A stretch of DNA of 64,000 nt, taken from the IMG/VR virus record IMGVR_UViG_3300017991_000077, positions 33,476-97,475 of that record; one strand, given 5' to 3'. A program made the translations under genes and the position numbers. Origin of the DNA: a virus. The notes beneath the pieces are model-generated. The model saw nothing but the letters and a program-made list of their open reading frames with translations. It did no database searches and was not told the origin of the DNA. Below, piece by piece: positions 9,703 to 55,983 of this stretch. Within the stretch, counting starts at the first letter, position 1; each line of letters opens with the position of its first letter.

Positions 9703-9711
9703 AAAGTTGCA

Positions 9712-9776
9712 GGCTCATTAACGAGCCAGTATCTTTAGATAAGGCCATTGTCTCAGGCTAATGGGACGTAAGGAGG
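9712..9776 (+). promoter_or_regulatory. Intergenic stem-loops and strong RBS
   Basis: A 5-bp stem GGCTC/GAGCC (9712-9727) is followed by a second pairing CCATT/AATGG (9745-9764) and a perfect AGGAGG (9771-9776) seven bases before the next ATG. There is no T-run, so this is more likely an mRNA processing or stability element than a factor-independent terminator. Confidence 0.35.
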
Positions 9777-9782
9777 TAAGAG

Positions 9783-12524
9783 ATGGGTCAGAGTATTAGT
9801 AAACTGGACATCATCGCGATTACTGCAAGTAACGCTGCAGCTACCAAGCTATGGGAGTTTCTTCGGGATCTCCGAGAAGACGCAGCGAACGCTATCGCAG
9901 GAATCACAACGGTATTCCACAAAACTCAGTTGGGCAGTTCTGTAGAGGACACAGCGAATGCGTCGGACTTAGCGACGGCGTATACACTTGCGAATTCCCT
10001 AAAGGCGAAGCTCAACATTCACTTGGCATCGACAGGTACTACGGGGGCGCACGCAGCGGCTTCCGCAGGGTCTATCACTGCAGCCAATGCAACCACAAGG
10101 GAGACTCTAGTTACGCTGCTCAACGAGTTGAAGGCTGATTACAATACCCATCTCACGGAGTCAGGTGTTCACTTAGTCAACGATTCGACTAACTCGACAT
10201 CTTCAGCTGACGGTATGGGTCTTTCAGATCTTTACGATTTGGCCAACGATGTCAAAGCTCAGTACAACGCACACCGGGTAGAAGCGACCGTGCATAAGAC
10301 CAATGACACTACCAACATAGTGTCTTCGGCAGATGCAACGGATCTATCTTCGGCGTTGACTCTGTTGAATGAGATCGACACCGATTATTCGGCGCACATT
10401 GGAACGGCAGATGTTCACGATGTAGCGGATTCGACGAATGTAGTCACTTCGGCTGATGCAACGACCAGAGATACTCTGGTCACTTTGCTTAACGAGCTGA
10501 AGACTGACTATAACGCACACCGGTCTCAAGCCACCGTGCACGCAGTGAACGATTCGGCCAATGCGGTAACCCATGCGGCCGGAAATCTGGCCACAGACCT
10601 CTATGACTTGGCCAACGACGTCAAAGCTCAGTACAACGCTCACAGAACTCAGGCCACTGTTCACAAGACCAACGATACTACAAATGTAGTAACCGCGGCC
10701 GACGCAACAGACTTGGCTTCTCTTCAGACTTTGCTTAACGACATCGACACTCAGTATGCTGCACACTGCGCCACCGCAGATGTTCACGATGCTGCGGATT
10801 CAACCAATGTCATAGCCTCTGCGGACGCGACGACAAGAGACACCTTGGCCACTTTGCTCAACGAGTTGAAGTTGGACATCAATGCACACAGATCGCAGGC
10901 AAGTGTTCACGCAGTGAATGACACTTCGAATGCGATCACGGCAGCCGACACCAATTTGGCTTCGGATCTTTACGATCTGGCCAACGACATCAAGACTCAG
11001 TACAACGCACACTTGAGCGAAGCGACGGTTCACTCCACGGACGATGCAGTGAATACGGTTGTCGCAGCAAATGCGACCGACCAGGCCACGCTCGAGACTT
11101 TACTCAACGAGATCAAAGTCGACTACAACATTCACAGAGCGCTGGGCGCAGTTCATGATGCGGCCGACTCGACGAACGATGTCTCCTCGGCGAATGCTTC
11201 GGACTTGGCCTCGACTCAGACTCTGTTGAATGAATTGAAAACAGACTACAATGCACACAGAACCCAGGCTTCAGTTCACCCAGTGAACGACACTACCAAC
11301 GTTATCGTAGCAGCCAATGCTTCGGACTTGGCAACATCGATCACGCTGGCGAATGAGTTGAAAACAGACTTCAATCTCCACTTGGCAGAAGCCACAGTCC
11401 ACACCACGGATGACACGAAGAATGTAGTTTCGACTACAAATGCTTCGGACCTCCCGACAGCACAGGCTTTGGCCAACGCCCTAAAAGCGGCCTACAATCT
11501 CCACCGGGTTTTAGTGGCAACGCACTTGATCCCAGACGCAACGAACATTATCGCTTCGGCCAATGCATCCGACTTGGATACGGCCATCGCACTGGCGAAC
11601 GAGATTGCGGCGGATTTCGATCTGCACCGGTCTCAGGTAGGCGTTCACCCAGTTGCAGATGCAGTGAACGACGTTACGGAAGATCTGGCCACGACTTTGG
11701 CTCAGATGGTGACGTTCGTGAATGAGGTCAAGACCGACTACAACGCGCACCTTTCACAGTCCACAGTTCACACCACAGACGACGCGACCAATGTGGCTTC
11801 TTCTGCCAATGCATCGGATGAGTCTTCGGCTTACACCTTAGCTAACGAGATAAAAGCCGATTACAACGCCCACCGGGTTCTCACCGGTATGCACGAGCTG
11901 GCAGATGCGACTAACACAATCGCTGCGGCGGCTGCTTCGGACTTGGACACTTCTATCGCTCTGGCGAATGAGCTGGCTACAGACTTCGATCTTCACCGAG
12001 TGGAGACTGGAGTTCACGCGGTCGACGATGCGGTAAACGACGTCACCCAGGACCAGGCGACAGCCCTCGCAGAGGCAGTGGCTTTTGTGAACGAAATCAA
12101 GGCAGACTACACAGCGCACCTTTCGCAGTCTACGGTTCACACATCGGACGATGGAACCAACACCATTGCGGCAGCGGACGCCACAGACCAGGCTTCGGCA
12201 TTCACTCTGGCCAACGAGTTGAAGGCTGATTACAACCTACACCGGGCGACGACGGGTGTTCACGAGATCCAAGATTCTACGAACACCATTTCAGCTCCTT
12301 CGGCGACAGACCTCGATACTGCTATCGATTTGGCCAACGAGTTGGCAGCAGATTTCGATGTACACAGAACCCAGGCCGGCGTTCACGCAGTGGACGATAC
12401 AACCAACGATGTCACTGAGTCTCTTGCATCCACGGATGCAGCTCTCGTGACCCTAGTGAATGAATTGAAGACTGACAACAACGCCCACGTTATTTCGGCG
12501 ATGACATCAGCAATCATTGAGTAA
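9783..12524 (+). CDS. Long tandem-repeat virion protein (about 21 x 41 residues)
   Basis: 913 residues made of about 21 copies of a 41-residue unit. The consensus runs NAHRxQATVHxxxDxTN, then VxxAxATDLAxA, then TLLNELKTDY. Each unit has two conserved His seven residues apart and a conserved Asp-Thr-Asn. The first about 80 residues are a divergent cap. C-ending codons (aac, gac, cac) are far commoner than in neighbouring genes, suggesting high expression. It sits in the virion gene block, so a fibre, tape or surface protein is inferred. No named family recognised. Confidence 0.65.
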   Translation: MGQSISKLDIIAITASNAAATKLWEFLRDLREDAANAIAGITTVFHKTQLGSSVEDTANASDLATAYTLANSLKAKLNIHLASTGTTGAHAAASAGSITAANATTRETLVTLLNELKADYNTHLTESGVHLVNDSTNSTSSADGMGLSDLYDLANDVKAQYNAHRVEATVHKTNDTTNIVSSADATDLSSALTLLNEIDTDYSAHIGTADVHDVADSTNVVTSADATTRDTLVTLLNELKTDYNAHRSQATVHAVNDSANAVTHAAGNLATDLYDLANDVKAQYNAHRTQATVHKTNDTTNVVTAADATDLASLQTLLNDIDTQYAAHCATADVHDAADSTNVIASADATTRDTLATLLNELKLDINAHRSQASVHAVNDTSNAITAADTNLASDLYDLANDIKTQYNAHLSEATVHSTDDAVNTVVAANATDQATLETLLNEIKVDYNIHRALGAVHDAADSTNDVSSANASDLASTQTLLNELKTDYNAHRTQASVHPVNDTTNVIVAANASDLATSITLANELKTDFNLHLAEATVHTTDDTKNVVSTTNASDLPTAQALANALKAAYNLHRVLVATHLIPDATNIIASANASDLDTAIALANEIAADFDLHRSQVGVHPVADAVNDVTEDLATTLAQMVTFVNEVKTDYNAHLSQSTVHTTDDATNVASSANASDESSAYTLANEIKADYNAHRVLTGMHELADATNTIAAAAASDLDTSIALANELATDFDLHRVETGVHAVDDAVNDVTQDQATALAEAVAFVNEIKADYTAHLSQSTVHTSDDGTNTIAAADATDQASAFTLANELKADYNLHRATTGVHEIQDSTNTISAPSATDLDTAIDLANELAADFDVHRTQAGVHAVDDTTNDVTESLASTDAALVTLVNELKTDNNAHVISAMTSAIIE

Positions 12525-25754: not shown

Positions 25755-26018
25755 ATGGCGACACATACTTTGAAGGCTTGGCCCAACTTTTTTGAGGCTG
25801 TGCGAAAAGGAATAAAGACTTTTGAAATCCGTAAAAACGATAGGGGATTTCGGGTAGGAGATATACTTAATCTTAATGAGTATGATCCTTCTAGAAAAAC
25901 CTATTCAGGAAATGTTTTGGAAATGAAGGTCACTTATCTGTTGAGTGATCCCCATTTCGGTCTTCAAGACGGATACGTGGTGATGGGTATTGTTCCGAGG
26001 AGTTTTCATGAGTTTTAA
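25755..26018 (+). CDS. DUF3850 / ASCH-like protein
   Basis: 87 residues matching the DUF3850 pattern: HTLKAWPNFFEAVRKGIKTF, EIRKNDRGFRVGD and DGYVVMG. These belong to the ASCH superfamily of small putative RNA-binding domains. The biological role in phages is not known. It overlaps the helicase gene by 11 bases. Confidence 0.8.
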   Translation: MATHTLKAWPNFFEAVRKGIKTFEIRKNDRGFRVGDILNLNEYDPSRKTYSGNVLEMKVTYLLSDPHFGLQDGYVVMGIVPRSFHEF

Positions 26019-28236
26019 GAGTGCTATTGTGGATAGTATGGTTCGAGTATTCGAGACTAAGGTGCCTGAGTATCTTTACTCTGAGTATACACTCAACACC
26101 GTAGAGGGAGGTTTTAAGCTCTATTCGGTAGATTCAAATTCTGGGGTAGTTTCTTTTCCACGTTCGGCCCAACGATATTTTGATTGTGAAGATCGTACTT
26201 CTCAAGGAAGAAGTATTGATCGGGAATACGAGGCTAAGTTTAAGCCAAGAGAATATCAAGAAGAAGCTGTTGCGGCGACATGTCAGTACCTGTCTCGGCA
26301 TAGGGGAGGAGTTCTTATTGCAGGTTGTGGAAAAGGAAAGACCGTTATGGCCACTGAAAGTGCACTCAGACTAAACAAGTCGACATGTATTTTAGTGCAT
26401 AAGGAGTTTTTGGCAGACCAATGGGAAGCAGCTATAAAAATGCTTTCTGGAATTCATACTGTAGGTCGGTTGAAGCGGGATCAATGTGATACAGGTCAAG
26501 ATTTTGATTTCGTCATTGCGAGTACTCAGAGTCTTACTAATCCAAAGCGGGAGTATCCCAAAGAATTTTTTGATTCTTTTGGATTGTTAATCGCAGACGA
26601 ATGTCACAGATACGGGGCTGAAATTTGGCACCAGGTATTTCAGCAGTTCCCCGCTCGGTATCGACTCGGGTTAACAGCCACCGCGGAGAGGTATGATGGG
26701 CTGTGGGGACTCGTGCAAGAACATGTCGGATATACCGCGACTTGTATCGATGCAGATCCTATCGAGAATAAAGTATTCATGGTGAAACTGACTACAGGAA
26801 TTCCAGAATCGGCATGGAATCATAAGTGGTTGGACGATAATATGAAGAGGGCCAAGCTAGTATCTATTTTAGCAAACCACGATGGCAGGAATGAGGTGAT
26901 TGCTCGGAATATTCTCAAGGCTTTCGAGAGCAATCGAATAACTTTAGTGATTTCAGAAAGACGGGCGCAGCTTGAGGAGCTTAGTAAGAAGCTTCAGAGT
27001 AGAGGCGTAGATGAAAAGCATATTGGATTTTTTGTAGGGGGTCGCAAGAAGAAAGATTTAGACGAGGTACAGTTGAAGCCGCTTATCATGTGCTGTTTGG
27101 AAGAAGATGCTTTGTGTTTAACTCTAACTGGGTGGAAGCATTATTCTCAGTTGAGTATCGGGGAGTGGGTAGCATCCTATAGTATAGAGAGAGAGGTTAT
27201 TGAGTATGTCCCTCTAGTAGATATTAAGGTTTATGATTTTGATGGCTATCTCGCTGAAATAGATAGGAAAAGATTAAATGTTAGGATGACTTGGGGTCAT
27301 AAGAATGTAGTTTATAGAGGAGGTAAAGAATTTCTTGAAAAGGCGTGTTTTTTACAGACTGGAGACAAAGTTAGAGTGTTTGCTCCTGTTGATTATCCAG
27401 AACATGGGGAGAGTATAGGAGTTTCGCAGGCAGAGTTGGTGGGATGGTTTATCGCTGAAGGTACATGTACGCGGGATGATGGTGTGATTTTATACCAAAA
27501 CGAGGGGAAGACTGCTGAGCGGATAGACTATTTACTCGGAATAGCTGGTTGGGCGTATTCTCGAAGAGAGTATCGTCCAGGACAAATCAGTTGGCATTTC
27601 GGAGCAGCTCTTTCTAGAGCTACTTTTTTGAATTGGTCTCCAGATAAAGATTTAAATTCTTTTTTAATAGGGTTGCCTCAAAGGGAAGTAGACGCTTTAT
27701 TTGTTGGTTTGGTTGATGGTGATGGGAGTTACTACAAAAACACAGTTGTTTTTACGCAGAGAAAAGTTTCTACGGTCGATTGGTTTACTATTTTAGCTCT
27801 TCGGTGTGGCTATTCACCTTATGTAGGTAAGGATGAAAGAATAGGTAGAGTCTTCTTAACTAAGAAGAAATTTGTTGGTCTTACGGATAGAGAGTTTCAT
27901 GTAGCTCCAGTTAAGTATAGAGGGAAGGTATGGTGTCCGAAGACGAAGAATGACACTTGGATTGCTCGGAGTAGAGGTTCTATTTTTATTACTGGTAATA
28001 CCTATCAGATGGCCAAAGAAGGATTAGATATTGAGGCGTTGGATGCTTTGTTTATGGCTACCCCTCAATATGGAGTTACGCAGACCGTAGGTCGAATATT
28101 GAGAGAGCTTGAAGGTAAGGCTGTTCCCGTTACAGTTGATTTTGTTGATTCAGATGTTGAGCGGTTGAGAGGTCAGGCGTTTGGACGGGTAAAACAATAT
28201 CGCGCTTTAGGATGTGAAGTTGTAGGAGAGTTTTGA
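26008..28236 (+). CDS. SF2 DNA helicase (UvsW/XPB-like) interrupted by an intein
   Basis: 742-residue precursor from the ATG at 26008, which has CGAGGAG upstream. N-extein: Walker A AGCGKGKT (105-112), a DECH box (IADECHRYG) and LTATAER (motif III). C-extein: TYQMAKEGLDIEALD (motif V) and QTVGRILRE (motif VI). The intein separates motifs IV and V. After splicing the helicase is about 440 residues. UvsW-like helicases act in branch migration, replication restart and recombination, fitting the RecA downstream. Confidence 0.88.
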   Translation: MSFKSAIVDSMVRVFETKVPEYLYSEYTLNTVEGGFKLYSVDSNSGVVSFPRSAQRYFDCEDRTSQGRSIDREYEAKFKPREYQEEAVAATCQYLSRHRGGVLIAGCGKGKTVMATESALRLNKSTCILVHKEFLADQWEAAIKMLSGIHTVGRLKRDQCDTGQDFDFVIASTQSLTNPKREYPKEFFDSFGLLIADECHRYGAEIWHQVFQQFPARYRLGLTATAERYDGLWGLVQEHVGYTATCIDADPIENKVFMVKLTTGIPESAWNHKWLDDNMKRAKLVSILANHDGRNEVIARNILKAFESNRITLVISERRAQLEELSKKLQSRGVDEKHIGFFVGGRKKKDLDEVQLKPLIMCCLEEDALCLTLTGWKHYSQLSIGEWVASYSIEREVIEYVPLVDIKVYDFDGYLAEIDRKRLNVRMTWGHKNVVYRGGKEFLEKACFLQTGDKVRVFAPVDYPEHGESIGVSQAELVGWFIAEGTCTRDDGVILYQNEGKTAERIDYLLGIAGWAYSRREYRPGQISWHFGAALSRATFLNWSPDKDLNSFLIGLPQREVDALFVGLVDGDGSYYKNTVVFTQRKVSTVDWFTILALRCGYSPYVGKDERIGRVFLTKKKFVGLTDREFHVAPVKYRGKVWCPKTKNDTWIARSRGSIFITGNTYQMAKEGLDIEALDALFMATPQYGVTQTVGRILRELEGKAVPVTVDFVDSDVERLRGQAFGRVKQYRALGCEVVGEF
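27094..27999 (+). mobile_element. Intein with LAGLIDADG homing endonuclease
   Basis: 302 residues. It begins with Cys (CLEEDALCLTLTG, a block A-like start) and ends FITGN before a +1 Thr. The penultimate residue is Gly instead of the usual His. Two LAGLIDADG-like motifs are visible: ELVGWFIAEG and EVDALFVGLVDGDG. Excising it restores a continuous helicase motif (IMC joined to TYQMAKEGLD). The insertion point is in the conserved motif V region, a typical intein site. Confidence 0.88.
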
Positions 28237-41700: not shown

Positions 41701-42006
41701 ATGAAAACCGCAGTTGAGACGGAGACAGAGTATCCTGATAAGACGGAATTAAGGGTGGCGGGTGGATCGGCTGCGGCGAAAGTAGCAGGAGCACTTGTAA
41801 AGAACATGCAAGAAGGAAAGAGGGTGCAGCTCCTAGCAATGGGGGCAGGGGCTGTTAATCAGGCGGTCAAGGCTATTTGTATTGCTCGGGGAATGGTAGC
41901 GCCTTACGGATGGAATCTGAATTGTATCCCTGGGTTTGTGGATGAGTATGTGAATGGTCAACATAGAACCGCAATAAAGCTCTACGTGCAGAAGGAGACG
42001 GTGTAG
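41701..42006 (+). CDS. spoVS: SpoVS-family protein
   Basis: 101 residues. The core ELRVAGGSAAAKVAGALVKN, then LLAMGAGAVNQAVKAICIAR, NCIPGFVDEYVNG and RTAIKLYV follows the SpoVS pattern closely. SpoVS is a small Alba-like dimer, best known from sporulating Firmicutes and also from Deinococcus-Thermus; nucleic-acid binding has been proposed. Finding it directly upstream of queD in a phage is unusual. It begins at the base after the RuvC-like stop. Confidence 0.85.
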   Translation: MKTAVETETEYPDKTELRVAGGSAAAKVAGALVKNMQEGKRVQLLAMGAGAVNQAVKAICIARGMVAPYGWNLNCIPGFVDEYVNGQHRTAIKLYVQKETV

Positions 42007-42008
42007 GG

Positions 42009-42494
42009 ATGACGTTCGAGGTTTCAAAACGATTTGAATTCGATGCGGCTCATAGATTGATGGAACATCCAGGAAAATGCAAAAATATCCACGGACATCG
42101 ATATGTGGCTGAAGTGGTAATACAGCATAATACGTCTGTAGTAGGTGAGATGGCTTCGGGTATGGTTATTGATTTTGGAGTTCTTAAAGAAGTTGTCGGT
42201 TCTTGGATAGATAAGGCATGGGATCATTGTCTTATTCTTAACGATAGAGATCCTTTGGTGTCGTTATTGTTGACTAGCCAACTTGGTGAAGACATCCCAA
42301 ATATGTTTCTTACAGTAGGAGATCCTACAGCAGAAAACATGGCTGAAATTTTGTATCGTAAAGCTAGAGATCTTTTGTATTTGTCAGGTCCGCTTGATGT
42401 GGCGTCAACACTTTCTCCAAAGGAGACGAAGATTGTGACTGCTCGAATTTGGGAGACGCCTACGAGCGTGGCGGAATATCGAGAAGAGCGATGA
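42009..42494 (+). CDS. queD: 6-carboxy-tetrahydropterin synthase (QueD)
   Basis: 161 residues. Zinc ligands His15 (FDAAHRL), His28 and His30 (NIHGHRY) and the catalytic Cys24 (GKCKN) are present, as is the AWDHCLILND segment. QueD converts dihydroneopterin triphosphate to 6-carboxytetrahydropterin, the second step to preQ0. The family also includes PTPS enzymes, but the neighbours queE, folE and queC settle the assignment. The stop overlaps the queE start (ATGA). Confidence 0.9.
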   Translation: MTFEVSKRFEFDAAHRLMEHPGKCKNIHGHRYVAEVVIQHNTSVVGEMASGMVIDFGVLKEVVGSWIDKAWDHCLILNDRDPLVSLLLTSQLGEDIPNMFLTVGDPTAENMAEILYRKARDLLYLSGPLDVASTLSPKETKIVTARIWETPTSVAEYREER

Positions 42495-43159
42495 CCTACA
42501 AGATAAACGAGGTCTTCTTTAGTATTCAGGGAGAAGGGGAATCTCTCGGGTTTCCCGCAGTCTTTATTAGGTTTTCTGGATGTAATTTGAAGTGTTCTTT
42601 TTGTGATACTTCTCACGAGTTTCACGAGGTACTAACAGCGAAGCAAATTGCACGAAGAGTACGAAGTGCCTTGGCAGAGAAGCTGTGGCCGCAGTCTTTG
42701 GATCATATTCCTTTGCGATGCGTCTTCACCGGAGGCGAGCCTTTGATGCAGCTCAGTAATGAGATCGCAGATGAGATAAAAACCTTGGGATTTTCCTTGT
42801 GTATCGAGACTAACGGAACGATAGTTCCTGACGATTTTGATTGGGGTCTGTATGACGAAGTTGTAGTAAGTCCGAAGAGTCCAAACGGAGTATCAGATAA
42901 AATACTCGAGAGAGCCACTTGCCTTAAAGTGGTAGTTCCTTTGATGCAGTCTCGGTCTGTGGTGAAATACATGTCGGCCAATGGACCTCGGTTGAGGTCA
43001 AGGGTTCTTCAGCCGATACTCCCACGAGAAGGATTCCACAGTTGGAAATGGACGGACAATTGTTTAGACGCTAAGCATCTAGCTATGGCATGGTTACGTG
43101 ATCGACAAGAAGAGTGGAGAGTGATTCCCCAGGCACATGCCTCGATGGGACTAAAATAA
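42491..43159 (+). CDS. queE: 7-carboxy-7-deazaguanine synthase (QueE)
   Basis: 222 residues from the ATG at 42491. The radical SAM motif is C31-NLK-C35-SF-C38 followed by DT, and the start VFFSIQGEGESLGFP is typical of QueE. TGGEPLMQ and ETNGT lie in the SAM-binding barrel. It converts 6-carboxytetrahydropterin to 7-carboxy-7-deazaguanine. It is one of four preQ0 pathway genes in this operon. Confidence 0.93.
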   Translation: MTYKINEVFFSIQGEGESLGFPAVFIRFSGCNLKCSFCDTSHEFHEVLTAKQIARRVRSALAEKLWPQSLDHIPLRCVFTGGEPLMQLSNEIADEIKTLGFSLCIETNGTIVPDDFDWGLYDEVVVSPKSPNGVSDKILERATCLKVVVPLMQSRSVVKYMSANGPRLRSRVLQPILPREGFHSWKWTDNCLDAKHLAMAWLRDRQEEWRVIPQAHASMGLK

Positions 43160-43169
43160 AGGAGATATT

Positions 43170-43562
43170 GTGGACGAGAAAAAAGAATACAGAGAAGGAC
43201 ACGACCCAGATCCAAAGGGGCCAAGTGAGGAAGTAGGTGCAGCCGAAGATAGCCACAAGGATGTCGTTTCTGAGAAGCCCCGGATAGTGACTGCATTTTT
43301 GATAGTCAAAACTATAGACGGAATTGAGCTGGTAACCGATTTACCCGACTTGAACATGGATCACTCTGTGAGTCTTCCAGAACTTCGGGACCTTACTTAC
43401 AGTGTTTCAATGGATACTCAGGCAATTTTGGTAGCTCGTAGAGCTTCTACTATGTGCATGACCTCTATGAGGGACCCTGCATCGAAGAGGGCAAGAGACG
43501 CTTCTGTAATTCAGCCCGTAGGTAAGCCAACGCTTGTTGGGCCAAATGGAGTTCCAAGATGA
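43170..43562 (+). CDS. Hypothetical protein within preQ0 operon
   Basis: 130 residues with GTG start after AAAGGAGAT. The first 40 residues are acidic and probably disordered. A beta segment (IVTAFLIVKTIDGIELVTDL) follows, then a helix. It overlaps folE by 4 bases. The role is unknown; the context suggests a partner in base modification or its regulation. Confidence 0.5.
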   Translation: MDEKKEYREGHDPDPKGPSEEVGAAEDSHKDVVSEKPRIVTAFLIVKTIDGIELVTDLPDLNMDHSVSLPELRDLTYSVSMDTQAILVARRASTMCMTSMRDPASKRARDASVIQPVGKPTLVGPNGVPR

Positions 43563-44122
43563 CAGAACAAGATGCTCAGGCTGTAGCTACTATTTCTGAG
43601 GCTGTGTCTAAAATACTTCCGGCGTTGGGAGAAGATGGAAACAGAGAGGGCTTGAAAGATACTCCTGAGCGAGTAGCGAGAATGTTTCTAGAAATGACGA
43701 CAGGTCTCAGAGAACCCGCACCCAAGATAACGACGTTTGACCGCGGAAATAATGACCAGATGATTACAGTATTGGACCTTACCTATTTTTCAAATTGTGA
43801 GCATCATCTTGTACCTTTTTTTGGAAAGGTACATATCGGCTATATTCCCAGGGATCGTATTGCGGGGTTGTCGAAATTTGGTCGAGTAGTGGATTGGTTT
43901 GCGAAGAGGCCGCAGATACAGGAGCGTCTCACTGCTCAAATAGCGGACCATATTATTGACCAGATAGCTCCTTTAGGCGTTATCGTTGTGGTAGAAGGAA
44001 TGCATATGTGCATGGCGATGCGGGGAGTCAAAAAGCCTAATCATATGACGATTACAAGTGCCATTCGTGGAACCATTCCAAAGAACGAATTTTTTGACCT
44101 TTTGAAACTCCAAAGAGGGTAG
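43559..44122 (+). CDS. folE: GTP cyclohydrolase I (FolE)
   Basis: 187 residues. Zinc ligands Cys80 (NCEHHLVPF), His83 and Cys151 (MCMAMRG) are all present. GLKDTPERVARMF and AGLSKFGRVVDWFA are characteristic. It makes dihydroneopterin triphosphate from GTP, the first step of the preQ0 pathway. Start overlaps the previous stop (ATGA). Confidence 0.95.
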   Translation: MTEQDAQAVATISEAVSKILPALGEDGNREGLKDTPERVARMFLEMTTGLREPAPKITTFDRGNNDQMITVLDLTYFSNCEHHLVPFFGKVHIGYIPRDRIAGLSKFGRVVDWFAKRPQIQERLTAQIADHIIDQIAPLGVIVVVEGMHMCMAMRGVKKPNHMTITSAIRGTIPKNEFFDLLKLQRG

Positions 44123-44124
44123 TT

Positions 44125-44553
44125 ATGGGAACGATAGTTTTTGACCTCGATGGCGTTATTGCCACCGGGACGAAGGAAGAGATTTATTCTGACGAGGCGG
44201 GATGGGCCTATGAGAAATGTGAAGTTGTAGAGTCTTCAAGATTGTTGGTTAGTCTTTTGTTTCTGAAAAATCATACGATCATAATCAATACAGCTAGGCC
44301 GGAGGTTGACCGCGAGAAAACTATCGCCTGGTTAGACCAAAACGCCATACCTTTTTCTAGACTCTATATGAATAAGCCCCGAGGTGAGATCTATATTGAT
44401 GATCGCAATTACCCAAAAGCGTTTTTTCCAGGAGATGAGGCTACCGCTCTTGAAGTCGCGGCGGACATAGATAAAACGGTAAAAAGACGATTGGATAGAT
44501 GGGAGCAGGGAGGAAAAGACCCCTTCCACAGAAAGGTAACTAATCCCCAATGA
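44125..44553 (+). CDS. HAD-superfamily phosphatase-like protein
   Basis: 142 residues. IVFDLDGVI (Asp6, Asp8) is HAD motif I; IIINTARPEVDREKTIAWL resembles motif II; IYIDDRNY carries the acidic motif. Small HADs of this type occur as phosphatases for sugars or nucleotides. Between folE and queC it may act on a pterin or nucleotide phosphate, or on a sugar phosphate for the glycosyltransferases. Overlaps queC by 4 bases. Confidence 0.7.
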   Translation: MGTIVFDLDGVIATGTKEEIYSDEAGWAYEKCEVVESSRLLVSLLFLKNHTIIINTARPEVDREKTIAWLDQNAIPFSRLYMNKPRGEIYIDDRNYPKAFFPGDEATALEVAADIDKTVKRRLDRWEQGGKDPFHRKVTNPQ

Positions 44554-45254
44554 AAAAACAGGTAGTATTGTATAGTGGAGGCCCGGATTCTTACATAACT
44601 TATCGATACGTTAAGGGTGTTCATAATGCCGAACGTCGTGGGGAAATCATTCCTCAGTATTTTGATCTAGGTCACAGGTATGCAACGTCAGAGTTGGTAG
44701 CGGTTGCTAGGACCGTACCTGAGACTCGGGTGGATCGCAGTTTGATTGGGTTAGGTGAGCTTGAGCAACCGGATGGATATATTTGGAATCGCAATGCGTT
44801 TTTGGTGTTAATGGCCGCAAAGAATTTTGATGGAGATGGGGGACGTATTTATCTCTCAGTACAGCGGGACGAGCAAAGTATTCCAGATAGAACCGACAAG
44901 TTTATGCGCCAGTTACCTTATCTTTTAGATACACTAGGTCAGTCTAATATCGAAGTAGTAACGCCCTGGGCAATTTCTGATAAGACTGATATGGTTGAGT
45001 GGTATCTTGAGAGATTCAATCCAGAAAAATTGATGATGACTACTTCGTGTTATCAGAGAACAGAAGGTTTGCCTTGCGGGAATTGTCCGGCATGTATTCG
45101 TCGATATATTGCTTTTTCTCTAAACGGGCTTGTTGAAAAGTATGCGCAAGACCCCGTAAGAAGTGAGATGGCTCGACAGTATCGTCTTCGGGCAGATGCC
45201 GGGGAGTATAGTGAAAAACGAACACAGCGGATATGGGCTGCTTTGGGGGTGTAA
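44550..45254 (+). CDS. queC: 7-cyano-7-deazaguanine synthase (QueC)
   Basis: 234 residues. The PP-loop is SGGPDS (9-14) and the zinc site is Cys167, Cys176, Cys179 and Cys182 (CYQRTEGLPCGNCPACIRR). It converts 7-carboxy-7-deazaguanine to preQ0 using ATP and ammonia, completing the pathway begun by FolE, QueD and QueE. No QueF is seen, so preQ0 rather than preQ1 is the expected product. Confidence 0.92.
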   Translation: MKKQVVLYSGGPDSYITYRYVKGVHNAERRGEIIPQYFDLGHRYATSELVAVARTVPETRVDRSLIGLGELEQPDGYIWNRNAFLVLMAAKNFDGDGGRIYLSVQRDEQSIPDRTDKFMRQLPYLLDTLGQSNIEVVTPWAISDKTDMVEWYLERFNPEKLMMTTSCYQRTEGLPCGNCPACIRRYIAFSLNGLVEKYAQDPVRSEMARQYRLRADAGEYSEKRTQRIWAALGV

Positions 45255-45255
45255 C

Positions 45256-45480
45256 ATGGCAAAGTGCAAGAGTTGTGGGGCATCTATTATCTGGTCTAAA
45301 ACAGTGAAGGGAAAAGCAGTTCCTTTAGATGTTGAGCCAACGAAACGGTATGTTTTGTGTTCAGACCCCTTTGCAGCTCCAGGAGAGGAATCACGGGTAG
45401 AACTTCGCACTTGTTATCGGTCTCACTTTGTTACATGTCCACATGCCGATAAGCACAGAAAGGGAAAGAAGGATGGTTGA
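45256..45480 (+). CDS. Zinc-ribbon small protein
   Basis: 74 residues from the ATG at 45256. MAKCKSCGASIIW with CPHADKHRKG at the end is a common phage zinc-ribbon pattern (CxxC, then ESHFxTCPxADxHR-like). It lies between queC and a radical SAM gene with overlaps. Function unknown. Confidence 0.6.
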   Translation: MAKCKSCGASIIWSKTVKGKAVPLDVEPTKRYVLCSDPFAAPGEESRVELRTCYRSHFVTCPHADKHRKGKKDG

Positions 45481-46624
45481 TAACCAAGAAGGAACATTTG
45501 AAAAACGGTGGGATAAGTCCTTTGAAAAAATGCAGGTTTTAAAAGCGGAATGGATGATCACTCGGAAGTGCAATCTCAAGTGTTCATATTGTAAAATACG
45601 GGATAGCCGCACTCTGAAGGCTCCAGAGCTTTCAACTGAAGCATTGGTCAAGATAGTTCAGTTGTTTAGTCGAAATTGGCCGGGAGCACCTATGGTGGTG
45701 TACGGAGGGGAGCCTACTGAGCGGGATGATTTACCGGAGTTGCTGAGGGCAGGCCGGTTATATCGAGTGAAGTTGCCTGTCATTTCTAATTCGATTCGGG
45801 TAGTTGAAGATTCGGGTTATGCTCGGTTGCTCGTAGAATCGGGATTGGAAAATTGGTCAGTCTCTCTTGATGGTCTTGCTTATATGAATTCAGCTCTTGA
45901 TATGTCGGGACGAAAGAAATCGTTGTACGGATTGATGGCGCTCAGATTGTTCAGGGATATTTATGGTCTTCGAGACTTGGTGGCGTGTGTCACAGTGAAT
46001 CGAAAAAATATTCGGTATTTGCCCGATATACTTCGAGCGCTAACCTCCGAAGGAATTCATAGTATCTTTACTCCGTTGCATATTGGCGGTCCCGGATATG
46101 AGTATGCTCAGGGCAATGTAGAGGATCTTCCTCTACAAGAGGATCTCGACGAGATTTCTCCTCTAATGTACGAGATGGTGAAATCGGGAAGGTTCTTGTG
46201 TTCTAACGATGCAGCCTGGTTCAACGTTTGGCCGAAACACTTCCGTAAGCAGGATTGGATGTGTAACGATAAAGGGCTTTTAACCATAGATGCAGACGGC
46301 AGCCTAAAATACTGCGTTGATATTCCTTTTAGAGAAGAAGACCGAATGAATGTATTCGAGCTTAATACGGAGACAGGCCAGAAGAAGTTTTTGGATATTA
46401 TCCAGAAAGGGCCTCCTTGTAAGGGGTGTCTGTGGAATCCTGCATACGAGTGTATCAAGAGAGCACGGGACCCACACATCGGTATTGAGAGCGGGAGAGA
46501 GCGGTCCAGGCATTATGTGGCAGAGGAAAGGCTTGAGTTGTTGCATGGAGGAGCTGGGAGATATTTTGAAGGGAATCCGGAATTGAAGCGTGTTCCTCTT
46601 GGAGGGAAGCATGAATCCGATTGA
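45473..46624 (+). CDS. Radical SAM protein with C-terminal Cys cluster (SPASM-like)
   Basis: 383 residues from the ATG at 45473. C33-NLK-C37-SY-C40 is the radical SAM cluster; VVYGGEPTERDDL is the GGE motif. The C-terminal part has several Cys (WMCNDKG, YCVDIPF, CKGCLWNPAYEC), as in SPASM/twitch auxiliary clusters. It is clearly distinct from QueE. The substrate is unknown: it may modify the base, a sugar or a peptide. It stands between queC and three glycosyltransferase genes and overlaps both neighbours. Confidence 0.85.
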   Translation: MVDNQEGTFEKRWDKSFEKMQVLKAEWMITRKCNLKCSYCKIRDSRTLKAPELSTEALVKIVQLFSRNWPGAPMVVYGGEPTERDDLPELLRAGRLYRVKLPVISNSIRVVEDSGYARLLVESGLENWSVSLDGLAYMNSALDMSGRKKSLYGLMALRLFRDIYGLRDLVACVTVNRKNIRYLPDILRALTSEGIHSIFTPLHIGGPGYEYAQGNVEDLPLQEDLDEISPLMYEMVKSGRFLCSNDAAWFNVWPKHFRKQDWMCNDKGLLTIDADGSLKYCVDIPFREEDRMNVFELNTETGQKKFLDIIQKGPPCKGCLWNPAYECIKRARDPHIGIESGRERSRHYVAEERLELLHGGAGRYFEGNPELKRVPLGGKHESD

Positions 46625-47501
46625 CCGAGTAACAGTGGCCATTCCCACTAGGGATAGGCCGGAGTATCTATCAATTCTATTGAGTTCTCTGATACCTCAA
46701 GCGAAGTATATTTCAGAAATTATTATTCTTTCAAATGGTCCAACAGAGAATCAGACTGAGGTTCCGATTGTTACTCGATTTACAGATACCCTAAAAGCTA
46801 TGGATCTCAGCGTGCGTTCGATTTATTTGGGAGAGATTGGGAGAAGTGCCGCAACTGCATACAATCGGGCGATGTTGGAATGCCAGTCCCAGGTATTGCT
46901 CTGTTTAGATGACGATACTTGGGTTGAGCCGAATTGCTTGGGGTGGCTAATCGAGTCTTTCAATTTTTTAGAAACTCAGGGTTCCGAGCCGGTAGTATTG
47001 AGCCCGGTCAGTCCGTGGATGGATCGAGCGTGGGAGGGGATTGGACCAGAGGTCATTAACTATTCGTTTGACGAAGATACTCGGATGGTGGAATTGATTC
47101 CGCATCATGAGCCTTTGGACGGAAATGCACACGAGACTTTTAGTCGTCTAGTACGATTTAATTCTCAGTTTGATGTGGATAGTTCTCAGCCACAAATTCA
47201 CCCTTCAGATGCTATAAGTCCTCTTGCGTTTATGCTTCGACCAAATTTGGGGGCTCCTTGGAGTGATGTTGGGCATCCTTGTACGTTTTCGGATTTAGCT
47301 TGGAGTATTCAGCTCCAGTTATTCCATGGGTATAAATTGTTTTTTGATATTCGATGTGATGTTTGGCACGTGAATGCTAGTCACGGCGGACTTCGAAAGA
47401 GTGAGGGAGATTACTCCAAACGAAGTGAAGGATACCTGGCTCAACTTCGAAGAGTTGGGAGTCTTCTTTCGTCATTAAAGTTGAGAAAAGAGCAGTCATG
47501 A
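46611..47501 (+). CDS. GT2-like glycosyltransferase
   Basis: 296 residues from the ATG at 46611, after GGAGGGAAG. VTVAIPTRDRPEYLSILLSS is the nucleotide-binding start and CLDDDTWVEP holds the DxD-type metal site. GT-A fold glycosyltransferases transfer sugar from a nucleotide sugar. The C-terminal half (about 150-296) is divergent. It is the first of three adjacent glycosyltransferase genes between radical SAM and DpdA. Confidence 0.8.
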   Translation: MNPIDRVTVAIPTRDRPEYLSILLSSLIPQAKYISEIIILSNGPTENQTEVPIVTRFTDTLKAMDLSVRSIYLGEIGRSAATAYNRAMLECQSQVLLCLDDDTWVEPNCLGWLIESFNFLETQGSEPVVLSPVSPWMDRAWEGIGPEVINYSFDEDTRMVELIPHHEPLDGNAHETFSRLVRFNSQFDVDSSQPQIHPSDAISPLAFMLRPNLGAPWSDVGHPCTFSDLAWSIQLQLFHGYKLFFDIRCDVWHVNASHGGLRKSEGDYSKRSEGYLAQLRRVGSLLSSLKLRKEQS

Positions 47502-48328
47502 CATCTATTCAAGAAGACAAGAAGGTATCTGTAGTAATCCCTACTATCGGTAGAATCGAGACTCTTCCGGCAGTGATCACCGCAGTTGAATTTCAAACCT
47601 ATAATATGATCGATGAGATTATTATTTTGGATGAAGCGGCTTGTCCGATTTCGGAGTCTTATCCCGTGAATCAGGCTTTAGATGTTCTTTCGGTAAGCGG
47701 TATCGATGTAAAGATCCTTCGTAATCGCAAGCGGAAGGGGATAGGAGCTGCTCGACTATTGTTGGCGAAAGAAGCCAGGAATGAGTTGATTTTGATGATA
47801 GACGACGATGTAGTTCTATACCCCAGGTGCTTGGAAATCTTGGTAGAGTCTCTTGGACTTGAGTATCCCTGGGCGGTCCCACATTGTTTTTTAGTGCCCA
47901 AGGCTTTAGAGCTAGATGGATATATCGATTGGAAGGTAGATCCAGATAATCCGGAAGTTTTGAAGTGGACTCAAAAGTACCCATGGTTTATTCCGTATTT
48001 TAGATACTCTACGAGAGTCATTACTCAATTGGAGATAGCCGGCACGCAGAGCATATTGATTCGAAAGACTCGTTTTTTGAATTCTTGTTCACGTTTACCT
48101 GAGCTTGGGAATCTCCCGAGGGAAGATACCTATATGACCAAGAAGATGGGATTAGGGGTTTTTGATTCTTATGCGGAATGTCTTCACTACGAGCATCCAT
48201 CTCAAGTCGACAGAGGGAATTGGGGATCTTCTATGTTTTATCGACTCCATGAGGCTATCAAACGAGACCCCGATGCATTCCTGGGGTTTATTCGTAAGTT
48301 CGACAGTTCAGAAAAAAGGAATGGATGA
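47498..48328 (+). CDS. GT2 glycosyltransferase
   Basis: 276 residues, overlapping the previous gene by 4 bases (ATGA). VSVVIPTIGRIETLPAVITA and LILMIDDDVVLYPRCLE are the donor-binding and DDD metal-site motifs. A YEHPSQVDRGNWGSSMFYRL segment near the C-terminus may bind acceptor. Acceptor unknown; context suggests a modified DNA base or a virion glycan. Confidence 0.85.
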   Translation: MTSIQEDKKVSVVIPTIGRIETLPAVITAVEFQTYNMIDEIIILDEAACPISESYPVNQALDVLSVSGIDVKILRNRKRKGIGAARLLLAKEARNELILMIDDDVVLYPRCLEILVESLGLEYPWAVPHCFLVPKALELDGYIDWKVDPDNPEVLKWTQKYPWFIPYFRYSTRVITQLEIAGTQSILIRKTRFLNSCSRLPELGNLPREDTYMTKKMGLGVFDSYAECLHYEHPSQVDRGNWGSSMFYRLHEAIKRDPDAFLGFIRKFDSSEKRNG

Positions 48329-49101
48329 TGTATCCAGTTTTTGTGATCAATTTAGACCGATCAAAAGATCGTTGGGAAACGATGCTCAAGACTTTTCCTT
48401 TAGATAATCTCCAGCGAATTCGGGCAGTAGATGGAAGACAGTGGGAGCTGGGGGGAAAAACGGATGATACTGGAAGGGTTCTTTGGGATCCAGAGAAGGT
48501 AACAATGTTGAAGGATTTGGGTGTACTTGGAGACCATCCGATTTATAGCATAGGAGGTACGAACCCCCTCTGGCCAGGAGTTCCCTGTGACTTGGGTTGT
48601 ACGTTAAGTCACGCAAAGATATGGAGAAAAATTTATCAAGAGCAGATACCCTGGGCGGTCATTCTTGAGGATGACACTGAGCCTACGGAGTTTGTGGCTA
48701 ATCGGAGGTTATGGGACGTTTTAAGGTATATGATACCTATGGGGGCAGATGTAGTGCTTTTGTCTGGACATCAAGAGGGCACTAATAGTCGAGAACTCGA
48801 CCGCGATGGCCAGTTTATTGGGGGATTTGGGACTGAGGGATATGCTATCTCTTGGAGGGGTGCTGAAGTAGCGTTGCACGCAGAGTTCCCGATGTATGAG
48901 ACGTTAGACCGACAGTGGTTTAAGCGAGGTTTTTTGTCTTGCCTAATGAAAAATCAGATTCCTCTTCCGCCAGTTCCCTATAAGGTTCGAGCATATGGTC
49001 TTCGAGAACCGATTATTCGGATTTCTGCAGTAGGAGACACAACTACGTTTTCTCATACCGGCAATAAAGAGTGGCACCTACAGAAAGGAAAGGACCAATG
49101 A
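48325..49101 (+). CDS. GT25-family glycosyltransferase
   Basis: 258 residues. VFVINLDRSKDRWETML at the N-terminus, GCTLSHAKIW and AVILEDDTEP fit the GT25 (LPS biosynthesis-type) family. It overlaps both neighbours by 4 bases, so it is made with the GT2 pair and DpdA. In bacteria GT25 enzymes add galactose or glucose to surface glycans; the acceptor here is unknown. Confidence 0.87.
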   Translation: MMYPVFVINLDRSKDRWETMLKTFPLDNLQRIRAVDGRQWELGGKTDDTGRVLWDPEKVTMLKDLGVLGDHPIYSIGGTNPLWPGVPCDLGCTLSHAKIWRKIYQEQIPWAVILEDDTEPTEFVANRRLWDVLRYMIPMGADVVLLSGHQEGTNSRELDRDGQFIGGFGTEGYAISWRGAEVALHAEFPMYETLDRQWFKRGFLSCLMKNQIPLPPVPYKVRAYGLREPIIRISAVGDTTTFSHTGNKEWHLQKGKDQ

Positions 49102-50654
49102 GTAAGAACGAGACTTCGATTGTTCCGATAGAAGACCCCCTTTCTCTAAGTAAAGAGAAGCTCGAAGCTCATTTGAAACGATGGGATAGAGATCTTTCTG
49201 AGGAGAATCGATGTTATGGAATGAAGCTGCTTTTAGCAGGAGCTGAGCAGAAGAAAGTTCGGGATGGTTTGTATCGAGCCGGGATTCGACATATTCTCGT
49301 CTCGTATTACTACCTGAGAAAGTGGTTAAAGAATCGACCTGCCCAGGAGATTGCAGAAGACTTTGGTCGTTTTGATTTCGTGTTTCTGGATTCTGGAGGA
49401 TATACGTTGATGGTCCAGAACGAAAAAGAAGGCGTCCAGGTAGATATTAACGAGTATTCCAGCGAGTATTATACTGAGCTAAAACGTATTGGATCTATCT
49501 TTGCAGGGTGTGCTGAAGTGGACCTTCCGAATAAGTTGGGATGGGATTATTATGAGAGCATCAAACAAGAGATGGTGGATGAAGGGGTGCCTATAGTCCC
49601 TGTGATGCATGGAAAACCCTTAGAGTTCTATGGGGATCTTGGATGGTTTGATGATTATCCTTATATTGCAATCGGCTCTTTGGTACTTACAACCCCCAGT
49701 TATCGAGGATGGGTGAATCAAGTATTTGATGTGTGTAAGGAAAAAGGAATATTAGTTCATGGTTTCGGGGTCACCGATACCAAGACTATGCTCAAATCTC
49801 AGTATTATTCTTGTGACTCAACTACCTGGTTAAATGGGTCAAAGTTTGGGTCTACGATGGTTTTTGAGAATGGTCGAATTCGGCATTATGATCATCTTAA
49901 TAAGGCTGTGCGTCGAAGATTTAAAAAGCGTTTTGAGGATAATGGTATCATTTGGAGTGACATCGAGGCGGATAAGGGTTTCGAAGTAGACATGATGAAT
50001 GCGCTTGCTTGGAAACAGCTCGGTGACTACGTGAGATATTCTGCTATTAGAAGCTATTGGCTCACTCCAGAGGAGAAGGATAGAGCGCTTACGTTAAAGT
50101 CTAAGGCGTTCAATGCTGAAGGGGTTATTGATCGAAAAGTTTCGATAGAGCGAGCGGAAGCCAGAAGATTACTGGCAGTGGAAGATCCGGATTCAGATGA
50201 CAGATCTCATGAGATACTCCATTGCGATACTTGCCACGTGACTGGACGATGCCCTCGGTGGAAAGCAGGGGAAGCTTGTGGATATGATATAAATGTTCGT
50301 TTAGAGTCTCAAGGAGACCTACAGAAAATGCTTCAGATATTACTGGAGGCTCAGTATGGAAGGGTTATGACCGGAGTACTTTTTGAAAAGCTTGAAGGAG
50401 GAGTGCTCGATAAGAATCTGTCTGCGGAGCTTCAGCGGACTATTGGTATGGTAGCAGATATTAAGAGTATCTTTGCACCCAGAGTTGAAGAGGAAATAGA
50501 GATTCGGGCTAAGGGAGGTAAAGGGGCTTTGTCCTCAATTTTGGCAGGCGTCTTTGCTCCTACAGGTGTTGGAAAATCAGGATCAGGAAATTCGCAGGTT
50601 CAGAGGGCAGCTAATAAGATTATTGATGTGGAGCCAGACGTATCAGAAGATTGA
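49098..50654 (+). CDS. dpdA: DpdA-like DNA-guanine transglycosylase
   Basis: 518 residues from the ATG at 49098, overlapping the GT25 stop. FLDSGGY (about 97-102) matches the Asp-Ser-Gly-Gly catalytic loop of tRNA-guanine transglycosylases; HGFGVTDT (221-228) and YSCDSTTWL (with Asp240 as candidate nucleophile) follow in barrel order. Cys376, Cys379, Cys385 and Cys394 form a zinc-type cluster. The C-terminal about 110 residues are an extra domain. Phage DpdA proteins exchange guanine in DNA for a 7-deazaguanine. The full preQ0 pathway is in the same gene run. Confidence 0.85.
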   Translation: MSKNETSIVPIEDPLSLSKEKLEAHLKRWDRDLSEENRCYGMKLLLAGAEQKKVRDGLYRAGIRHILVSYYYLRKWLKNRPAQEIAEDFGRFDFVFLDSGGYTLMVQNEKEGVQVDINEYSSEYYTELKRIGSIFAGCAEVDLPNKLGWDYYESIKQEMVDEGVPIVPVMHGKPLEFYGDLGWFDDYPYIAIGSLVLTTPSYRGWVNQVFDVCKEKGILVHGFGVTDTKTMLKSQYYSCDSTTWLNGSKFGSTMVFENGRIRHYDHLNKAVRRRFKKRFEDNGIIWSDIEADKGFEVDMMNALAWKQLGDYVRYSAIRSYWLTPEEKDRALTLKSKAFNAEGVIDRKVSIERAEARRLLAVEDPDSDDRSHEILHCDTCHVTGRCPRWKAGEACGYDINVRLESQGDLQKMLQILLEAQYGRVMTGVLFEKLEGGVLDKNLSAELQRTIGMVADIKSIFAPRVEEEIEIRAKGGKGALSSILAGVFAPTGVGKSGSGNSQVQRAANKIIDVEPDVSED

Positions 50655-51119: not shown

Positions 51120-51731
51120 ATGAAAAAGTTAGTTTTAGGCTTAGGTACCGGAAGGTGCGGAACGGTATCTTTATCGAGATTGTTGGATATTCAGGAGGGG
51201 TATGGGGTTACCCATGAAATGTATAGACTCCCCTGGATTGTAGATACAGGGGAATTCGAAAAAATCGCACATATTTTGAGGAGTACTACTACACCCATAG
51301 CGGGTGATGTGGCTTTTTATCTAATGCCTTATTTTGAGTTATTTTCTAAGTCTTTTGATGTTCGGGCTGTTTGTTTACAGAGACCCAAGGAAGAAGTAGT
51401 TGAAAGCTACCTACACAAGACTGAAGGAAGAAATCATTGGTCTTTTTATTCTCAGTCTTGGCAGAATAAACTTTGGAGACAAGAGGAGGAATGGGATCGA
51501 TGTTTTCCGAGTTATTCTCTGGCGAAAAAAGAGGCCATTGGGAAGTATTGGGATGATTATTATACGATTGCTCGGGAATACCAGGAGGAATACCCAGCGA
51601 ATTTTCGAATATTCGGTATGGACTACGCATTAAACACAGAAGACGGGCAACGTGATTTGTTAGGATTCGTTGGAGTAATGCATCCGATTACGTTGTCTAA
51701 AAACAGACTGAATGTCAGTAAAAGGAGATAG
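51120..51731 (+). CDS. Sulfotransferase-like protein
   Basis: 203 residues. LVLGLGTGRCGTVSLSRLL is the PAPS 5'-phosphosulfate loop and VCLQRPKEEVVESYLHK the 3'-phosphate binding segment of sulfotransferases. These enzymes move sulfate from PAPS to hydroxyl or amine groups of sugars or small molecules. It lies two genes after DpdA and the glycosyltransferases. The acceptor is unknown; a sugar made by that cluster is a natural guess. Confidence 0.75.
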   Translation: MKKLVLGLGTGRCGTVSLSRLLDIQEGYGVTHEMYRLPWIVDTGEFEKIAHILRSTTTPIAGDVAFYLMPYFELFSKSFDVRAVCLQRPKEEVVESYLHKTEGRNHWSFYSQSWQNKLWRQEEEWDRCFPSYSLAKKEAIGKYWDDYYTIAREYQEEYPANFRIFGMDYALNTEDGQRDLLGFVGVMHPITLSKNRLNVSKRR

Positions 51732-55185: not shown

Positions 55186-55932
55186 TTAGGGCCATAGAAT
55201 AACATCGTAGTCTAATGATTTTGGATCTGTAGGAAGAGCATCTATTTTAACTGTCGGATTCTTAGTAAGAGCAAACGTATAATTCAATTTTGAAAACATT
55301 TCATTTATTGAGGCTATGTCCGCACCCAAATGAGCGTGAAGCTCCAGAAGAATGATAGGTCGGTATTCAGCAATAGTCTCTTTAGCGCCTTCAAAGACTC
55401 TGTGTTCTGAACCTTCTACATCTACTTTCATGAGGTGTAGATTTTTCAGATTCATATTATCGAGCTGTTTGGTATATACCAAACATTGAGATGAATCTTG
55501 AGTCTGAGTTGGTTGGAGTTGTTCTTCGTTTAACGTATGCCAGCCGCTTTCTTTTCCTAAATGTAGTATCGCGGTGGAGGTGGAGTCGCTTAAGGCTGCA
55601 TTAATGGCAGTGATGTTTGCGAATTGATTTTCTTGGATGGATCTTACAATCCATTTGAAATTAGTAGGTTCTGGCTCGAAGGCGTATATTCGGCCTTTGT
55701 TGATAAGGGTTGCTGCGAAGAGAGCAAAGTCTCCTTTACAAGAACCAACATCAAGAAAGGTCATATTCTCTAGAAGGAGGTTGCTCAGTAGTTTGAACTT
55801 AAATGTTTCGTAAGTGCCAAGAACTCTGGCGACCATTTTGTATGATTCTTCTAGGTCCAGATATACGGTATAGTTGTGGGGAGTTTTATATTTTCTGTGT
55901 TCCATGCGTCGAGTGTAACACGAAGATTTCAT
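55186..55932 (-). CDS. FkbM-family methyltransferase
   Basis: 248 residues if started at the ATG at 55932 (minus strand); 239 from the next Met. FLDVGSCKGDFALFAA is the SAM-binding loop; LHLMKVDVEGSEHRVFEGA and IILLELHAHLG are the FkbM post-motifs. FkbM-type enzymes usually O-methylate sugars or natural products. It is the only minus-strand gene, and its 5' end overlaps promoter 6. This suggests a later insertion. A role in modifying the glycan made by the cluster is inference. Confidence 0.8.
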   Translation of the reverse strand: MKSSCYTRRMEHRKYKTPHNYTVYLDLEESYKMVARVLGTYETFKFKLLSNLLLENMTFLDVGSCKGDFALFAATLINKGRIYAFEPEPTNFKWIVRSIQENQFANITAINAALSDSTSTAILHLGKESGWHTLNEEQLQPTQTQDSSQCLVYTKQLDNMNLKNLHLMKVDVEGSEHRVFEGAKETIAEYRPIILLELHAHLGADIASINEMFSKLNYTFALTKNPTVKIDALPTDPKSLDYDVILWP

Positions 55933-55955
55933 TTTAGTATTCAAAAGCTTGCCTC

Positions 55956-55983
55956 TTGACAAAACTTTTCATTATGCTATTCT
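55956..55983 (+). promoter_or_regulatory. TTGACAAAACT-class promoter 6
   Basis: TTGACA (55956-55961) in TTGACAAAACT, 16-base spacer, TATTCT (55978-55983) preceded by TG (TGCTATTCT). It drives 56054 through a leader that holds a terminator-like hairpin. Confidence 0.75.

Follow-up and report, generated by a model that had tools for sequence, protein, structure and literature searches.

Why would a phage place glycosyltransferase (GT) genes among those that make a modified DNA base? The question is raised by a gene chain at positions 42009-50654 of an uncultured virus sequence, in which the genes for 7-deazaguanine synthesis (the que genes and folE) and the gene for a DNA-guanine transglycosylase (dpdA) enclose three GT genes. 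We analyzed this chain within a window of 64,000 nucleotides, which comprises bases 33476-97475 of a 97,475-base IMG/VR virus contig (IMGVR_UViG_3300017991_000077), labeled G000. Judging from gene content and from conservation in related contigs (G001 to G004 and G043), we consider it likely that the operon serves to synthesize a 7-deazaguanine base, put it into the phage DNA in place of guanine, and attach a glycan, the set of sugars being exchangeable. The chain consists of the following genes, given with their family matches, E values, and other support.

42009-42494, + strand: queD, 6-carboxytetrahydropterin synthase (PF01242, 1.3e-32; phrog_2389, 3.9e-30; TIGR03367 slightly below its cutoff).
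42491-43159, + strand: queE, 7-carboxy-7-deazaguanine (CDG) synthase, a radical S-adenosylmethionine (SAM) enzyme (phrog_2076, 4.6e-32; PF04055, 1.9e-9; ATGA overlap with queD).
43170-43562, + strand: small acidic protein of unknown function whose N terminus has YREG; relatives retain it between queE and folE (blastp homologues in G001 and G003, position and motif in G043).
43559-44122, + strand: folE, GTP cyclohydrolase I (PF01227, 4.9e-64; NF006826 above its cutoff).
44125-44553, + strand: HAD-superfamily phosphatase, PNKP/NT5C-like (phrog_1238, 3.6e-14; PF25109, 0.0012), kept in G001, G003, and G004.
44550-45254, + strand: queC homologue of a variant subfamily without YxQxHxxE and YPDC (PF06508, 6e-17; motif comparison).
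45256-45480, + strand: small Cys-rich protein (open reading frame [ORF] with a homologue at L026:1974-2177).
45473-46624, + strand: radical SAM enzyme of the SPASM/twitch type (PF04055, 6e-12; CX3CX2C and auxiliary Cys).
46611-47501, + strand: GT2a, glycosyltransferase with a DDD motif (PF00535, 5.4e-12; 31% identity to a G003 homologue).
47498-48328, + strand: GT2b, glycosyltransferase with a DDD motif (PF00535, 2e-14; weak match to TET-associated GTs, PF20691, 0.0047).
48325-49101, + strand: GT25-family glycosyltransferase (PF01755, 4.6e-14, above its cutoff).
49098-50654, + strand: dpdA, DNA-guanine transglycosylase (phrog_887, 2.2e-52; Foldseek matches to a tRNA-guanine transglycosylase [TGT], 1.6e-6, and to DpdA 7ui4; D98, D240, C376/C379/C385/C394).

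The base-making genes and DpdA had strong family matches and the GTs had clear ones, with 46 and 54 bits for the two GT2s (PF00535, cutoff of 23.3) and 53 bits for GT25 (PF01755, cutoff of 24). They agree with a preliminary description of this DNA, which had placed QueD, QueE, FolE, QueC, a radical SAM protein with a C-terminal Cys cluster, two GT2s, a GT25, and DpdA here. All are found at that place, in one direction; the HAD phosphatase and the small acidic and Cys-rich ORFs come in addition to that list. The tight gene overlaps described there were found as well, since 4-base ATGA overlaps join six gene pairs (queD/queE, the 43170 ORF/folE, HAD/queC, GT2a/GT2b, GT2b/GT25, and GT25/dpdA). 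The starts of queE (42491) and GT2a (46611) needed adjustment. The small Cys-rich protein is probably not specific to the pathway, because its gene is placed elsewhere in G001.

The last gene of the chain had been described as encoding a DpdA-like transglycosylase with a DSGG motif and Asp240, and both sequence and predicted structure bear this out. The match to phrog_887 covers residues 37-491, and the predicted model is a TGT-type barrel with a pLDDT (predicted local distance difference test) of mostly 80-94 in the barrel region. While a PDB sequence search with the DpdA profile returned nothing relevant, the best fold matches in the PDB were TGTs (4gh1 at 1.6e-6, 1iq8, 4htb, and 6z0d), and DpdA 7ui4 was also matched. 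D98 of the DSGG motif, D240, and C376/C379/C385/C394 are invariant across an alignment of five diverged DpdAs, and we take them to correspond to the TGT catalytic and zinc residues. The product is thus a TGT-fold DpdA, whose substrate, to judge from its family, would be DNA. In Bacteroides phage BS162P1 (L005:11947-13717), two ORFs make up DpdA, one catalytic and the other a Cys-rich C-terminal part.

A search for the same gene order showed that the layout recurs in five further uncultured virus contigs and is thus not due to chance. In all of these, the que genes and dpdA are conserved and flank a glycan set that varies. G001 (104 kb) harbors queD, queE, the small ORF, folE, HAD, radical SAM, GT2b, a GT4, and dpdA, with queC elsewhere on the contig, and G003 (104 kb) harbors queD, queE, the small ORF, folE, HAD, queC, radical SAM, GT2b, a NodB-type polysaccharide deacetylase, GT2a, two GT4s, and dpdA. 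The order in G002 (65 kb) is queD, queE, folE, a GT2, two GT2-like ORFs (one without a family match), queC, radical SAM, and dpdA. G004 (72 kb) has queD, queE, the small ORF, folE, HAD, a GT4-like ORF, a CDP-glycerol-transferase-like ORF (Glyphos_transf), a second GT4-like ORF, a GT2 with a PF20691 match (2.4e-4), queC, and dpdA; neither of its two GT4-like ORFs matches a Pfam GT model, both having been called by eye. In G043 (78 kb), where queC was not found, we observed queD, queE, the YREG ORF, folE, an NAD-dependent epimerase, a QueD-like paralogue, a methyltransferase, a GT4, a PIG-L deacetylase, a nucleoside triphosphate (NTP) transferase, another GT4, a CDP-glycerol-transferase-like ORF (Glyphos_transf), and dpdA. 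The unrelated deacetylases of G003 and G043 suggest that some of the putative glycans contain an N-acetyl-hexosamine.

DpdA identity among the phages that share GT2b is 52 to 57%. GT2b has homologues with 63% identity in G001 and 51% in G003, both directly after the radical SAM gene, and no homologue of GT25 was seen within the relatives' cassettes. In six contigs, GTs thus hold their place between que genes and dpdA even as the particular enzymes differ, which supports the earlier proposal that they form part of a 7-deazaguanine pathway with DpdA; operon conservation is also what suggests sugar transfer to the DNA base. Versions without a cassette seem to exist: L102, with queD, queE, queC, folE, a long dpdA, and no GT between folE and dpdA, looks like one, as does BS162P1. 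No PF00535 match was obtained in CAjan, GiJojo, or BS162P1, phages known to carry dpdA.

We also asked how far GTs accompany dpdA beyond this group. DpdA motif patterns, which retrieved 79 viral loci with a recognizable DpdA ORF in 78, outperformed scans of viral contigs with single radical SAM or DpdA proteins or alignments; these found just one or two relatives each because both proteins diverge fast. Scans of genome contigs returned no DpdA relative, and the radical SAM matches there were generic, none with dpdA beside it. A second layout recurred, consisting of folE, a QueD-like paralogue (QueD2), in several cases a radical SAM enzyme (rSAM2), a GT4, and dpdA. Hidden Markov models of GT4, radical SAM, or QueD2 built from the loci matched 17 of the 78 DpdA loci, a count that is descriptive only since the models were trained on part of the same loci. 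For a proximity statistic, 44 further DpdA contigs were chosen regardless of GTs. Seven of 13 PF00534 (GT4-type) matches lay within 1.5 kb of dpdA, compared with 6.9% expected by length (binomial P of 9e-6, which is approximate as the contigs may be partly related to each other), and none of the 12 PF00535 (GT2) matches did. This GT4/QueD2 layout is possibly a second architecture for sugar-bearing 7-deazaguanine.

A GT4 beside dpdA or among que genes, usually with the small QueD-like paralogue and in several instances with a radical SAM gene, was observed in L033, L053, L054, L057, L063, L074, L081, L084, L086, L092, L096, L110, and phages X1, ACP17, Paride, BUCT-ZZ01, and Phosso. The paralogue is possibly DpdL, the CDG decarboxylase. 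The isolated phages with the second-layout GT4 among que genes are Xanthomonas phage X1, Acidovorax phage ACP17, Pseudomonas phage Paride and relatives, Pseudomonas phages PA5oct and MIJ3, Synechococcus phage BUCT-ZZ01, and Sinorhizobium phage Phosso. The DpdA model scored no DpdA in these GT4 stretches, and by annotation only X1 has one; its genes are folE, a PIG-L-like ORF (by eye), the GT4, an annotated queuine transglycosylase, and queE.

Might DNA be the target of the base pathway and DpdA only, while the GTs, merely sharing their operon, modify a virion protein or a host surface glycan or lipid? GT2 and GT25 enzymes are common among surface-glycan enzymes, cyanophages carry GT25 homologues at 25 to 28% identity, and GT2 matches lie far from dpdA in other DpdA contigs. 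The cassette nevertheless stays between que and dpdA in all six contigs despite differing GTs, and in G000, G001, and G002 every PF00535 match of the whole contig falls inside it. Moreover, a different family, GT4, stands beside dpdA across diverse phages and adjoins the QueD paralogue. No related phage with these GTs but without que genes was encountered in the viral contigs, where the sole matches to GT2b carried the que/dpdA set and GT2a gave none. We regard a surface target as unlikely.

Two observations on the radical SAM enzyme bear on another alternative, namely, that the end product is a nonglycosylated 7-deazaguanine (preQ0 or an amide or carboxyl form), with the GTs and the radical SAM enzyme acting on a soluble intermediate or being inactive. 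The G001 radical SAM gene (L002:9980-11122) contains one in-frame TAG at codon 259, which corresponds to a Trp of the window protein and is due either to a nonsense mutation carried by the population or to faulty assembly. G004 and G043 harbor GT cassettes without a radical SAM of the window type, QueE being the sole radical SAM in G004. To our knowledge, moreover, all phage 7-deazaguanines bear only small C7 groups. The GT ORFs are nonetheless intact and overlapping, and GT2b is conserved at 51 to 63% across phages whose DpdAs share 52 to 57%, which argues for selection on the GTs; a nonglycosylated product appears somewhat less probable than a surface target. The cassettes of G004 and G043 also indicate that adding sugars does not in itself require the window-type radical SAM, and where this enzyme occurs (G000 to G003), it is always accompanied by GT2s. 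Its CX3CX2C cluster is formed by C33/C37/C40, and its C-terminal auxiliary cysteines C264, C281, C316, and C319 are invariant in an alignment of three. The protein has no match to PF13186 (Pfam SPASM), while the radical SAMs beside GT4-dpdA in L041 and L153 do. Its model is poor (pLDDT of 52), and the low-confidence fold matches to anSME, PqqE, BlsE, and MoaA are a hint only.

In animals, dedicated GTs produce mannosyl- and galactosyl-queuosine in tRNA by placing the sugar on the cyclopentenediol of queuosine. As in our proposal, the sugar sits on a 7-deazaguanine nucleobase; unlike in our proposal, the target is tRNA and queuosine-completing genes take part. A phage version of such a glycosylated tRNA base as the product here, for which one could invoke this precedent and the fact that QueD, QueE, and FolE are common to tRNA queuosine synthesis, is highly improbable, given that the transglycosylase falls into phrog_887 with known phage DpdAs and has no Pfam TGT match, that no gene for completing queuosine was seen among those of the operon, and that the 64-kb window contains no tRNA gene.

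If a glycosylated base in DNA is the favored product, which base would it be? The preliminary description assumed a full route from GTP to preQ0, and this part was not supported, owing to QueC. Canonical QueC has the motifs YxQxHxxE, VPxRN, and YPDC besides an ATP loop and a zinc site, C(x)8CxxCxxC, and the Escherichia coli enzyme needs Y131 of YPDC to form preQ0 (PMC13329287). The window QueC retains the ATP loop SGGxDS, as SGGPDS, and the zinc motif (CYQRTEGLPCGNCPAC), and of VPxRN it keeps RN, with IW in place of VP. YxQxHxxE is replaced by LGHRY, being absent also from G001 to G004 and BS162P1, and YPDC is replaced by IPDR, the Tyr and Cys being lost in G001 to G004, too. BS162P1 QueC also departs from the canonical motifs. 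In contrast, QueC of CAjan, whose DNA contains dPreQ0 (PMC6884629), retains both YxQxHxxE (YGQRH at that place) and YPDC, and YPDC or near-YPDC is present in most of 31 QueC-family proteins at other DpdA loci. We thus do not regard a simple preQ0 pathway as proven, and preQ0 as the product is uncertain; the loss of two signature motifs, including the tyrosine needed for preQ0, suggests that the variant QueC either has a different function or stops short of preQ0. Its relatives Cap9 and QatC have been proposed to join 7-deazaguanine to protein (PMC13329287, PMC13279940), making amide formation with another amine a reasonable possibility by analogy, and the window QueC gave no strong match to the QatC model (NF041925, 0.006, far under its cutoff). 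At L088:50-3172, a second, longer QueC-like protein of 469 amino acids and a small HAD-like ORF are followed by a variant QueC directly before dpdA.

The pathway could then proceed as follows. FolE, QueD, and QueE would convert GTP to CDG, as their strong family matches suggest, and the variant QueC may activate the carboxyl with ATP, yielding either preQ0 or an amide formed with ammonia or some other amine. DpdA, by its fold and active site, would exchange guanine in DNA for that base. Gene order suggests that the base, before or after insertion, receives a short sugar chain assembled by GT2b, GT2a, and GT25 from host nucleoside diphosphate sugars and that the radical SAM enzyme, perhaps together with the HAD phosphatase, modifies a sugar or readies the acceptor. 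The likely purpose would be to shield phage DNA from host nucleases, with the sugar set exchanged between related phages. A bolder version, which we hold to be doubtful, is an exchangeable DNA sugar locus akin to an O-antigen or capsule locus. Constant genes would make and insert the 7-deazaguanine, while swapped GTs, deacetylases, teichoic-type transferases, an epimerase, and a methyltransferase would give each phage its own DNA glycan. Instead of making preQ0, the variant QueC would couple an amine to the 7-carboxyl and so create the attachment point for the sugars; the amine could be ammonia, an amino sugar, or a phosphorylated amino alcohol that the HAD phosphatase subsequently trims.

Several points weigh against a glycosylated base. 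The case is built throughout on sequence rather than chemistry, and no hydroxyl or amine acceptor was identified on the base. Apart from the weak match to TET-associated GTs, the window's three GTs bear no nucleic-acid-specific signature. The six contigs are all metagenomic and not fully independent, as G000, G001, and G003 share a backbone, those behind the P value may likewise be related to one another, and the GT counts of G002 and G004 take in ORFs called by eye or weak matches.

Both 7-deazaguanines, which are small purine changes, and glycosylated pyrimidines are already known from phage DNA. In the titles, abstracts, and passages searched, which cover the literature in part, we found no description of a glycosylated 7-deazaguanine in phage DNA. 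The phage 7-deazaguanine systems of CAjan, Rosebush, and 9g (FolE/QueD/QueE/QueC/DpdA; PMC6884629) share their base-making genes and transglycosylase family with the window, which adds a variable GT cassette and a SPASM/twitch radical SAM enzyme and has a QueC without two motifs, whereas CAjan has a canonical QueC and no GT2 match. In glycosylated hydroxymethyl-pyrimidine DNA, phage GTs likewise act on a modified base (the T4 alpha- and beta-GTs and the TET-associated GTs, to which GT2b and the G004 GT2 show weak PF20691 matches); the window base, in contrast, would be a purine put in after replication by transglycosylation, not a pyrimidine made as a nucleotide or by TET/JBP. Cap9, of type IV cyclic-oligonucleotide-based antiphage signaling systems (CBASS), and QatC exemplify a QueC scaffold in non-preQ0 use, the canonical substrate motifs being lost in QatC and in part in the window QueC (PMC13329287, PMC13279940). 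Their partner is a protein, whereas the window QueC adjoins GTs, HAD, and DpdA.

A glycosylated purine in DNA, if true, would unite the sugar-pyrimidine and 7-deazaguanine themes and extend hypermodified DNA by a new class. If the sugars vary from one related phage to another, the DNA itself would have serotype-like variety, which would matter for restriction, CRISPR, and type IV enzymes. The question is directly testable, as related GT4s occur among que genes in cultured phages (PA5oct, Paride, MIJ3, X1, and ACP17).

Some neighboring features were also noted. In the window (41701-42006), as in several relatives, queD is directly preceded by a gene for a small protein that by eye resembles SpoVS. 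Just outside the cassette, ORFs 51120-51731 and 55186-55962 (- strand) show weak sulfotransferase-like (PF17784, 0.011) and FkbM-type methyltransferase-like features and could also modify sugars. Elsewhere in the window, a helicase ORF (25990-28236) appears to hold an intein-like insertion, two long structural-looking ORFs (7210-12524) are built of many short internal repeats, and GC skew is positive, mostly 0.15 to 0.3, along nearly the entire + strand.

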